Virus record (IMG/VR): IMGVR_UViG_3300036892_000014
Location: 19,882-83,881 of that record
DNA length: 64,000 nucleotides
Source: a virus
Direction: 5' to 3' (one strand)
Part shown: one piece after another, positions 3,849 through 47,711 of the stretch
Numbering within the stretch: the stretch's first letter is position 1
Layout of the letters: each line of letters starts with the position of its first letter
The notes under the pieces: model-generated
Database searches by the model: none
Told to the model about the DNA's origin: nothing
Seen by the model: only the letters and a program-made list of their open reading frames with translations
Position numbers and translations under genes: made by a program

Positions 3849-5963
3849 ATGTCGGAACCGCTAAATAATCAGGCAGCGTTGATACTTGGGAATCGCGAGG
3901 TTACCGCTGCGGATCAGATTACGTCAGAGAACATACACAAGGATAAGGATACTGGTACCTTCCTGTATGATGACCAAGCGGCTCTGAAGTTAGTTATTAA
4001 CGATGCGGCAATGGCGGACAACTACGCCAACGTCAATCAGTGGGCCAGCACTTGGACGCAGTCAGCGATTATTTTGCAGAGTCCAGCGAGCGCTTCGGCG
4101 TTCGACGGCGGCAACATAGCGCAGGCTAACGTTCCCAAGTTCACGTTATCGAACCACATAAGTGAGATAGTGCCGAAGATTATGGAAGGACTCTTTTATG
4201 AAGACCCTCCGTTTCTTCTTCGCCCGCGCCCGGGTACAAAACAGGAAATAGTCCGTTCAAAGACGGCACTGTTCTCTGCGCAATTGTGGGACATGCAGTT
4301 CAAGGTTGAGATGGAGCGTGGCCTTGAACAGATGGCGCTACTCGGCACCACAGTATTTAAGTGGGGCTACTTAGAGCGTCCCGTTAAATTGAAGCAGTTT
4401 CGCCGTAAGCAGGAACAGTTGCAACTTAATACATCTGTTCCAACTGACCCGATTAACACACCGGATTCTGACGCTTACGAAATGTTTATCCTCGACGAAG
4501 TGGAATCACGTCCGTGGATAAAGTACTGTGATATTCGTACTGTATTGGTTGAGCCAGGATGCCGTTACGGCGATATCCGTCGCGCAAAGTGGGTAGTATA
4601 TCGCGACTTTGCTACATATGATGATTTGAACACGCTGCGCAATGTTCCAGGCTACGATATCCCCGACGAGAAAACGTTGAGGGCGTTGTTCATGTCTGGT
4701 GCGACAACGGGTGCTGACAACATTACCATGACCATCCCAGAAGGGATGCGTGGTTATTTGCAGCAAGCGTTGCCACGTAGCTTCAGGAGTTCGACTGATG
4801 AGTTGCAGAACTCGTTGGAAATTCTTGAGCGCTGGGACAATGATAAGGTTATTGTCGCGCTTACCTTCAATGGTAAGCACATACTGATTCGTAACGAACT
4901 CAACCCGTACGGAAAGATTCCGTTCCTTTCGGCCAACTGGCGCAACCTGCCAGACAGTTTTTACGGACAAGGCCTAGGCCAGCTAATCGGAAGCGAGCAA
5001 ATCGTGGAGCAGGGAGTTACCAACCTTGCGCTCGATCTACTTGCTTATGGATTGCAGCCGACAGCCATTCGTAAGAAGGGCTTCAACGTTCCGACACAGA
5101 TGACCCGTTGGAAGCAAGGCGGAATCATCGACGTTGACGACGACGTTGACAAGGCTTTTAAGTTTATGACCATGCCTCCCGTACCGAGCGAGGCTTGGCA
5201 ATTCATTAACCAGGCAAAGCAGGATGCGGCTGGAACATCAGGTTCAAACGAAATCGTAGGCCAGGGCGGCACCGTCGGTGGTGGTCGCGGCACCGGAATG
5301 CGTTCGGGTACCGGAGCGGCAGCCGTTGTTCAGGCTAATGCTAGCCGACTTGACGGCCCGACCACACGCGTGATTGAGCAGGTTTTTGAACCGTGGCTTT
5401 ACCAGATGGATCAGTTGAATAATGAACTGCTTCCGACCAGTGTCCTCCGTCGTGTATTGGGCGAGGAAATGGGCAATGACTACTTGCAAGATCACATTGA
5501 ATTTCGCAATGCGAAGTTTCAGTATGAAGTTCTTGCAGGAGCGCATCTCGGGGCCAAGAAAGAAATGGCTCAGGCGTTGCCAGTCATCATTCAACTTTTG
5601 AATAACCCGACGTTCGTGAAGAACGTTAATGACGGGCACTATCAGTTCGACGCGGTTGCAATCTTCAAGGCGTTTACGGATGCGGCAGGTTGGAAGTTCT
5701 CTCAAGAATTCCTACGCCCGATGACACCAGAAGAAACACAACGCTATGAAGCGAATTCGCCAGCGGCACTTCAGCAGCAACAGTTGAAGGCGCAGCAGAA
5801 TCAGGCGCAGCAAAAGTTCCAACAGGAACAGCAATTAGAAGATCAAAAGCAACTCGGAAAGGCGGGAGCAGAAGTTCTTCGCGCAACAACTGAGCACAGC
5901 TTGTCTTCTGAAGATACGGGAGAACCGGGCAATCAAGGTTTCGGTTCGGAAGTTTCCGTTTAA
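3849..5963 (+). CDS. Portal (head-tail connector) protein
   Basis: 704 aa, starting directly after the terminase stop. It contains the portal-like core segment FLSANWRNLPDSFYGQGLG followed by a long helical region, and a Gln-rich, coiled-coil-prone C-terminus at about residues 635-685 (LQQQQLKAQQNQAQQKFQQ). Size, position between terminase and scaffold/capsid genes, and the sequence pattern all fit a podovirus-type portal. The ring-forming protein would occupy the capsid vertex and serve as the packaging channel. Confidence 0.82.
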   Translation: MSEPLNNQAALILGNREVTAADQITSENIHKDKDTGTFLYDDQAALKLVINDAAMADNYANVNQWASTWTQSAIILQSPASASAFDGGNIAQANVPKFTLSNHISEIVPKIMEGLFYEDPPFLLRPRPGTKQEIVRSKTALFSAQLWDMQFKVEMERGLEQMALLGTTVFKWGYLERPVKLKQFRRKQEQLQLNTSVPTDPINTPDSDAYEMFILDEVESRPWIKYCDIRTVLVEPGCRYGDIRRAKWVVYRDFATYDDLNTLRNVPGYDIPDEKTLRALFMSGATTGADNITMTIPEGMRGYLQQALPRSFRSSTDELQNSLEILERWDNDKVIVALTFNGKHILIRNELNPYGKIPFLSANWRNLPDSFYGQGLGQLIGSEQIVEQGVTNLALDLLAYGLQPTAIRKKGFNVPTQMTRWKQGGIIDVDDDVDKAFKFMTMPPVPSEAWQFINQAKQDAAGTSGSNEIVGQGGTVGGGRGTGMRSGTGAAAVVQANASRLDGPTTRVIEQVFEPWLYQMDQLNNELLPTSVLRRVLGEEMGNDYLQDHIEFRNAKFQYEVLAGAHLGAKKEMAQALPVIIQLLNNPTFVKNVNDGHYQFDAVAIFKAFTDAAGWKFSQEFLRPMTPEETQRYEANSPAALQQQQLKAQQNQAQQKFQQEQQLEDQKQLGKAGAEVLRATTEHSLSSEDTGEPGNQGFGSEVSV

Positions 5964-46248: not shown

Positions 46249-46649
46249 AGTAGCCTCCTAGATTTTCTTTCTTCGTTTAACTTGTATCCTTCTTGAATCC
46301 TCAACCGAAGCTGATATGTTGCAAACCAATCCACTTCTGCGCCCTTGGTAACCACCACCGCTTTTAGCCCCTCACTCGCCTTGTGATCGATTTGACCCGC
46401 CATCCGTCCTTGCGAAAAGCAGATCACGAGTTCTTCAGATCGTGTACGGTACTCGTTTTGAATCTCTTTGTCGATCATCTTTTCTTCCGTCGTCTTCTCA
46501 TTGTCTGGTTTGGCGAAGATGCCAGGGGTCACATAGCAGTCCCGGTATTTCTTGCAAGAGGGACACTGCGCGTACTCGTGAGCATGAAAAGGAAACTCCG
46601 TGGGAAGATTTAATTTTCGCTTGACGCGGCACTCTTCACAAAAGATCAT
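46245..46649 (-). CDS. Zinc-ribbon-like hypothetical protein
   Basis: 134 aa. Starts CEEC (residues 4-7) and has CPSCKKYRDC (about 29-38), a four-to-five Cys arrangement like a zinc ribbon, followed by charged helices (KTTEEKMIDKEIQNEYRTRS). Overlaps its neighbours by 1-4 nt. Likely nucleic-acid or protein binding; unknown target. Confidence 0.55.
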   Translation of the reverse strand: MIFCEECRVKRKLNLPTEFPFHAHEYAQCPSCKKYRDCYVTPGIFAKPDNEKTTEEKMIDKEIQNEYRTRSEELVICFSQGRMAGQIDHKASEGLKAVVVTKGAEVDWFATYQLRLRIQEGYKLNEERKSRRLL

Positions 46650-47104
46650 TACCAGAGCCCCTTGAAACCACCTTTATCGGCGATTCGAATCATGCAATCT
46701 TGAAATTTCTGACCGTGTTTATCCTCACCTTCATCGATACCATTGATACTGTCGTATTGATGGCAATCCTCATGGATTAAACTCATCTCCGCTTGTTCTT
46801 CGGTTGTGTTATAGTGCGGGTCGATTTGAATATGCCACAAACCGTCGCTGTCGTGATGAATGAATGCACTGTCCTGGTCTTTGCTCAGGTCGGCGAGTTC
46901 TATCCTGGTCAAGTACGTCGGTAGACCGCCGTAAAAGAAGGCGTCATTAAACGTTCGGTTCGCATCACTCAACTTTCCGACTGTCGGTTTTAAGTCCGCC
47001 GCATCGGCTGCTGACGAAACAACAGACGGCGCACCGCAGCCCATAAAGTAGGCTGCGATGCCCGCCAGGGTGACCGTGACGATGATCTTCTGCCAAGTTT
47101 TCAT
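46649..47104 (-). CDS. SprT-like metallopeptidase-type lipoprotein
   Basis: 151 aa. Signal peptide with lipobox at C23 (GIAAYFMGCGAP), so probably a membrane-anchored lipoprotein. HEDCH (residues 112-116) gives the HExxH zinc motif, and H131 in KHGQKFQDCM fits the third ligand of SprT-like domains (H-G-x-x-F). First gene of a unit behind a strong promoter. A phage-encoded exported lipoprotein expressed from an early unit could alter the envelope (superinfection exclusion or lysogenic conversion); this is inference. Confidence 0.65.
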   Translation of the reverse strand: MKTWQKIIVTVTLAGIAAYFMGCGAPSVVSSAADAADLKPTVGKLSDANRTFNDAFFYGGLPTYLTRIELADLSKDQDSAFIHHDSDGLWHIQIDPHYNTTEEQAEMSLIHEDCHQYDSINGIDEGEDKHGQKFQDCMIRIADKGGFKGLW

Positions 47105-47121: not shown

Positions 47122-47150
47122 AGTGTACCCCAGTTTTGGTCGTTTGTCAA
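47122..47150 (-). promoter_or_regulatory. Promoter of the SprT-like lipoprotein unit
   Basis: Minus strand TTGACA (47145-47150), 17-nt spacer, TACACT (47122-47127). The mobile element's target duplication begins 4 bp upstream of the -35 box. Confidence 0.75.
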
Positions 47151-47174
47151 GTGTTATTTTGGGGAATTATATAC

Positions 47175-47333
47175 TTAACTTCCCGCAACTTTCTTTGCTT
47201 CCAGCAAAACATCCATTAGTTTTTCACGGGCCTCTTCAAGTTCTAGAATAGATGCTTCGTCGCCCTCGTCATTGTTACGTTGAATCGCGCCCTCATATCG
47301 GCACAAAATTTTCATCAATTCTTCTCTGGTCAT
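47175..47333 (-). CDS. 52-aa helical passenger protein of the element
   Basis: ATG at 47333 within the preceding stop (AAATGA). Starts MTREELMKILCRYEGAIQRN; wholly helical and acidic, ending EAKKVAGS. Its TAA lies inside the left terminal inverted repeat, so gene and element end together. Function unknown. Confidence 0.6.
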   Translation of the reverse strand: MTREELMKILCRYEGAIQRNNDEGDEASILELEEAREKLMDVLLEAKKVAGS

Positions 47334-47575
47334 TTGATCCTCTTAACAGGCAATAGACAACCCATATCTTTAATCCATGCAACGATTTCCGTGTCTTCTA
47401 GTGCTTGTCTGATTATTTGGCGATCTAACTCTCTGCCGTCCGGTCCGGTTAATTCATCTGCGTGGACAACTATACTGCCGAGTTTGACCGCGAGATTTAA
47501 AGTAAGAATTTTCGTGTTTGCAAGTGCATGTCCTACAGTTTCATCTGGTTTTGGCTTGCGTGCGCCTTTTCTCAT
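47330..47575 (-). CDS. 81-aa passenger protein of the element
   Basis: AAGGAG upstream. Starts MRKGARKPKPDETVGHALAN, with a helical C-terminal half (LDRQIIRQALEDTEIVAWIK). Coupled to the 52-aa gene by a 4-nt overlap. Possibly a two-gene cargo; toxin-antitoxin organisation is possible but there is no motif to support it. Confidence 0.55.
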   Translation of the reverse strand: MRKGARKPKPDETVGHALANTKILTLNLAVKLGSIVVHADELTGPDGRELDRQIIRQALEDTEIVAWIKDMGCLLPVKRIK

Positions 47576-47591
47576 CGTAATCTCCTTGCTT

Positions 47592-47711
47592 TCAGCAGAA
47601 GGAAGTTAAGTATATAATTCCCTTATTTTGCGAGGACCCATTCATCGCCGCAAAACGCAGCGAAGACATTGATCCCGAGTGATCCCGGGAGATTCCTAAG
47701 TATTGTTTCAT
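47592..47711 (-). pseudogene. Truncated start of a vWA-like gene
   Basis: 39 codons: MKQYLGISRDHSGSMSSLRF then a quick stop inside the right inverted repeat. The DHSGSMSS segment is a MIDAS-type (DxSxS) motif at the N-terminus of phage von Willebrand A-like proteins, which are normally a few hundred residues. Removing the element and one target copy still gives a stop within three codons, so the gene was probably already truncated before insertion. Confidence 0.55.

Follow-up and report, generated by a model that had tools for sequence, protein, structure and literature searches.

A probable IS1595-type mobile insertion cassette in an uncultivated tailed phage and the family of elements that shares its ends

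The window, a stretch of 64,000 nucleotides from the genome of an uncultivated tailed phage, very probably contains a mobile insertion cassette, that is, a non-autonomous element of the IS1595 family (ISXO2-like) which has inserted into phage DNA. The sequences provide five kinds of evidence: matching ends, an exact 8-bp duplication, a recurring family, a transposase in the autonomous relatives, and cargo that differs between elements.

The element measures 461 bp including both arms, and its G+C content is 42.5%, compared with 51% for the window. It is bounded by inverted arms (GGGAATTATATACTTAACTTCC) that are 100% complementary over 22 bp and lie 417 nt apart, and TTATTTTG abuts both arms exactly. 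The perfect inverted repeats and the exact 8-bp direct repeat had been named in the original prediction and are present without a mismatch. It had also given 461 bp of cargo; this is the length of the whole element, and 417 bp of cargo lie between the arms. Both of the small genes placed there (81 aa and 52 aa) are found, on the minus strand. The features of the region are as follows.

47122..47150, minus strand: promoter-like site, context outside the element; TTGACA-17-TACACT, consensus match only, 10/12
47154..47161, no strand: left copy of the 8-bp target duplication, TTATTTTG; exact match to 47623-47630
47162..47183, plus strand: left terminal inverted repeat, 22 bp; found without mismatch in 8 other viral contigs
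47175..47333, minus strand: passenger ORF 2 (P0002), 52 aa, no known family
47330..47575, minus strand: passenger ORF 1 (P0001), 81 aa, from a family of small phage proteins in which KLGSIVVH is invariant; eight other viral contigs encode relatives
47582..47587, minus strand: ribosome-binding-like AAGGAG ahead of passenger ORF 1, read from the sequence
47601..47622, minus strand: right terminal inverted repeat, 22 bp; inverted partner of the left end
47623..47630, no strand: right copy of the 8-bp target duplication, TTATTTTG; exact match to the left copy

The two arms are the sole inverted pair reported within a 2-kb region. Shuffling the window 20 times produced perfect inverted repeats of at most 16 bp, with arms no more than 1.5 kb apart. 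When up to three mismatches are allowed, the motif of the 22-bp end is found in the window at these two places only, and in none of 100 shuffles. The whole 83.9-kb record also holds two copies of the motif, so the element is single copy there. No nucleotide match to the element region was found among 50,697 phage records, and a search for an RNA element in Rfam gave no match.

Elements with the same ends can be found in other viruses. A scan of IMG/VR located the exact 22-bp end in 8 other viral contigs. The original prediction had proposed looking for the end as inverted pairs in other genomes, and this is how it occurs: in each of the 8 contigs the end faces an inverted copy, and the exact 8-bp duplication around the pair is particular to that contig (GTTTTTCC, AAAAAAAA, CTTTATTT, AAATAAAA, TTCTCTTG, CATTTTAT, AATTTTTT and GAAGTGAG), and the elements are 170-778 bp long. 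A relaxed end pattern matches at least 119 stretches. Among the matches listed, an exact 8-bp duplication at offset 0 flanks 67 of the 96 nearest convergent end pairs. The 14 other offsets tested on the same 96 pairs give 0 or 1 duplications, and none reaches 9 bp. After duplicate contigs are removed, at least 64 distinct elements with exact 8-bp duplications remain. Judged by these sequences, the window segment is a true insertion.

Could the 22-bp repeats instead be conserved regulatory or replication sites of the phage that face each other by chance? The repeat does contain -10-like TATA stretches in both directions, as read from the sequence. However, the record holds two copies only, the duplications are precise and differ at unrelated loci of unrelated contigs, and longer elements have a transposase between the same ends. 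Such sites have next to no probability as an explanation, and the duplication statistics (67/96 pairs at offset 0, among the matches listed) led to their rejection.

The duplications of the inserted elements are rich in A+T (83%, against 44% in the flanks), and their positions 2 and 7 are nearly always A or T. The ends fall into two subtypes, with T or C at position 20, and the left end agrees with the right end in 25/25 full elements. The family also includes MITE-like relatives of 163-170 bp (L134 and L007). Beside the cassette of L006, a second, diverged end pair (L006:3207-3409) is flanked by a repeat of 10 bases rather than 8, TTTTGGTTTG.

The family can be named by its transposase. Among the matches listed, 31 of 64 distinct elements, 0.9-2.4 kb in length, contain a whole or partial IS1595-family (ISXO2-like) transposase; it is absent from the other 33, which measure 163-1301 bp. 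The transposase of the longer elements matches DDE_Tnp_IS1595 (1.7e-41) and Zn_ribbon_IS1595 in Pfam, and transpos_IS1595 (2.3e-57) in NCBIfam. The suggestion that IS elements with matching ends be sought was thus borne out. Two autonomous elements from metagenome-assembled bacterial genomes (L137 and L140) have the transposase inside, exact 8-bp duplications, and ends one mismatch from those of the window. This mismatch falls at position 16, which ranks first or second in variability among the positions of the end.

Other families make 8-bp duplications and have ends starting with GG. One of them is ISL3; PMC6305408 tabulates an ISL3 copy whose ends start with GG and which has an 8-bp repeat. 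A cassette of such a family is very improbable here, since every transposase found between these ends belongs to the IS1595 family and 5 of 6 bacterial genomes with the end hold the IS1595 clade at 61-100% identity.

An IS1595-family transposase was found neither in the window element nor in the rest of its record, which may be incomplete. For this reason we infer that the IS1595 cassette was moved in trans by a transposase copy elsewhere in the cell. That it is a transposed passenger element mobilised in this way had been proposed from the start, and the paired ends, the 8-bp duplications and the IS1595 relatives support the proposal. Among 32 passenger-bearing records searched, one (G029) has a full-length relative of the clade, at 63%. 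Another (G013) has a transposase relative at 37%, and a third (G012) has a transposase remnant only, inside the element itself. The end subtype at position 20 did not cluster on the transposase tree beyond chance, and therefore no single clade is named as the mobiliser of the window element.

The two passenger genes are closely packed. The stop codon of one and the start codon of the other share ATGA, and the stop codon of P0002 (TAA, minus strand) is supplied by the left terminal inverted repeat. Both genes run in the direction of both flanking genes. Searches of Pfam, NCBIfam and PHROG with P0001 and P0002 gave no match, nor did tblastn of P0002 against the phage collection. The structure model of P0001 is a three-helix protein of moderate confidence (mean pLDDT 76), with no significant match in the viral fold library. 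The eight relatives of P0001 are encoded by other viral contigs, with no such 22-bp ends in the stretch examined. Because these relatives sit outside any such element, the cassette has probably captured an ordinary phage gene. The relatives (L152-L159) form an unnamed family of small phage proteins in which W, M, P and R are conserved in addition to KLGSIVVH.

A cassette of this kind might also arise by decay. An autonomous IS1595 element could have lost its transposase gene by deletion, and the ORFs would then be old internal sequence rather than meaningful passengers. The family includes decayed copies with a partial transposase, L024 (947 bp) and L111 (1174 bp). The window element, however, contains no transposase remnant, conserved relatives of its 81-aa ORF occur in eight other viral contigs, and its two ORFs overlap in operon fashion and point the same way as both flanking genes. 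We regard decay as unlikely, with a small share of the probability.

The class of the element follows from what it contains. Its ends are one mismatch from those of autonomous IS1595 members and its duplication is 8 bp long, but it has no transposase of its own, and so it is filed as an IS1595 derivative cassette and not as an autonomous member. It has passenger genes between IS ends and no transposase, as in a mobile insertion cassette (MIC). A MITE, by comparison, is short, has no coding capacity and usually exists in many similar copies; this element has two ORFs and is single copy in its record. The "MITE-like passenger" of the original prediction is correct in lacking a transposase, but the genes inside make "mobile insertion cassette" the better name.

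The sister cassettes differ in their cargo, and DNA methyltransferases make up 15 kinds among the 31 viral passenger-only elements examined, or about half. They are distributed as follows.

N6_N4_Mtase: L005, L009, L022, L040, L064, L070, L071, L077
Dam: L003 (fragment), L006, L078 (just under Pfam's cut-off), L101
MT-A70: L004
D12: L113 and its near-copy L122
C5 enzyme: L115

Among 19 cargo ORFs with a minimum length of 120 aa, 12 are methyltransferases at E <= 1e-8 (11 of 19 by a stricter count, as the L003 fragment, shorter than 120 aa, is among the 12), compared with 1 of 95 flanking ORFs of 120-400 aa. The Fisher p-value is about 1e-10, for a table of the 25 top families that reaches down to about 1e-8 and leaves weaker control matches uncounted, and for contigs that may share ancestry. 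A single library was used for cargo and flanking ORFs, and the sample was picked by its ends and not by its cargo.

Some cargo is of other kinds. The segment L064:11961-12588 carries a match to the Mom family (2.3e-18) and adjoins a second cassette, with an N6/N4 methylase, on the same contig. The segment L084:2157-3334 is flanked by terminal inverted repeats and has no IS1595 transposase; its single ORF is TnpB-like (OrfB_IS605 and a Cas12f1-like TNB domain). This is a predicted RNA-guided-nuclease-type gene as cargo of another transposon family.

ORF length was the sole criterion for calling cassette genes. The main cargo gene begins 14-54 nt from one end in 22 of 26 cassettes, and it stops near or inside the other. 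The stop codon lies inside the inverted repeat in 9 of the 26, so that the proteins end in KLSI* or GS*, for example. Of 13 cassettes whose two flanking genes share a direction, 12 have their cargo in that direction as well (p = 0.003). Since the cargo is mostly co-directional with the neighbouring phage genes, it is probably expressed by read-through.

Two pairs of contigs bear on the mobility of the sisters. L113 and L122 share a 1069-bp methyltransferase cassette without transposase, 91% identical from end to end, and the two sites have different duplications (AATCTGAA and AAATTAAA) and flanks without similarity. In the second pair, L097 aligns continuously with the two L115 flanks once these are joined, and provides a homologous empty site at about 68% identity. 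The L115 cassette (L115:2249-2959), with its C5-methylase-like gene, lies inside another gene, and by eye the interrupted gene looks like a cytosine methylase. A systematic search over the loci for sequences crossing the joined junction, from which L115 was left out (its left end has 6 mismatches), found no empty sites.

The window element is located between two co-directional genes. The phage encodes an SU10-type portal protein (window 3849-5963, 8.5e-17), which places it near phages with that portal. The promoter-like site begins 4 nt beyond the left duplication and is directed away from the element. It runs from 47150 to 47122, facing and upstream of an SprT-like gene (46649-47104). The insertion is upstream of an intact -35/-10 pair, which the element leaves unbroken. 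A strong promoter 4 bp away, and with it a possible effect of the element on expression, had been predicted; the site and its 4-nt spacing are as described. It has 10/12 consensus matches, and the count of three such sites in the 1.1-kb region, against 1.5 expected in shuffles, is a weak signal. An empty site in related phages, the other check proposed at the outset, did not turn up for this copy: DNA-ligase relatives have no synteny at the site, no relatives were found through the SprT-like protein, and the joined 20-base junction has no exact match in viral contigs.

The family is found in viruses and in a few bacteria. The pattern GGGANTTATATACTTNACTTCC occurs in 47 stretches of the viral set (a count only, with no per-base rate). 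A bacterial and archaeal set of 84,980 species (257 billion bases) has it in 14 contigs, from 7 genomes. The exact end of the window element is in none of those 14 contigs. As the transposase clade is present in the 5 of 6 bacterial genomes mentioned above, phages are not its only carriers. Searches of the isolated-phage and plasmid collections found no member of the clade at 60% identity or above, and the relatives there lie below 60%. The copy in Pelagerythrobacter marinus measures 1822 bp and has the duplication TTCAATAG. With a phage lysozyme gene about 3.4 kb to one side and ordinary metabolic genes on the other, it looks as if it lies at a prophage edge. One Methylophilaceae MAG has the end GGGACTTATATACTTAACTTCC on eight contigs (L132-L136, L138, L139 and L142), in MITE-like elements of about 163-186 bp; there is no strong transposase match in the sequence of this MAG examined.

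These observations can be combined into a mechanism. An IS1595-family transposase from the host chromosome, a prophage or a co-infecting phage would act on the 22-bp ends. It would join the cassette to an A+T-rich 8-bp target in phage DNA, and gap repair at the target would create the 8-bp duplication. The cargo occupies nearly all of the space between the ends, and its stop codon is often supplied by the inverted repeat. On the simplest reading, cassette methyltransferases would protect the phage against host restriction.

Passenger genes are known in the IS1595 family, which includes 'transporter IS' members (Siguier, Gagnevin, Chandler 2009, cited in PMC3129680). The autonomous relatives of the window element encode the transposase of that family, and 8-bp duplications and passenger genes are common to both. 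Unlike the family at large, the window copy has no transposase, and the relatives sampled come mostly from uncultivated phages, with DNA methyltransferases as frequent cargo. The first MIC to be described was MIC231, of IS231 in Bacillus cereus (De Palmenaer 2004, cited in PMC3129680). MICs resemble the window element in having passenger genes between IS ends, no transposase, and possible activation by a cognate transposase; MIC231 differs in deriving from IS231 (IS4 family) in bacterial genomes, whereas the window element belongs to IS1595 and its carriers are phages. The window element is like MITEs in being short and transposase-less, with inverted ends and a target duplication, but unlike them carries genes and is single copy. 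DNA transposons have likewise colonised the genome of Pandoravirus salinus (PMC4495683). That virus is a eukaryotic giant virus with other elements, which are not known to be gene-carrying phage cassettes. Both IS1595 elements and passenger cassettes are known kinds. No description of phage-borne IS1595 cassettes, or of a phage-centred population with DNA-modification cargo, was found in the open-access literature searched, although there may be prior notice elsewhere.

A broader proposal is that a phage-adapted IS1595 lineage and its cassettes form a gene-exchange system among uncultivated tailed phages. Such a system would pick up resident phage genes between 22-bp ends, and would preferentially spread DNA-modification (anti-restriction) genes into A+T-rich sites in an expressible direction. 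We consider the case for and against this proposal to be evenly balanced.

Insertion sequences are generally regarded as scarce in phage genomes, and illegitimate recombination is the usual explanation for single genes added to phages ('morons'). A recurrent family of cassettes, each with defined ends, would offer phages a concrete and testable way of gaining single genes. Because these elements are recognised by a 22-bp end and an 8-bp duplication, their insertions can be counted in any viral metagenome. The genes acquired in this way include methyltransferases that could shield phages from restriction.
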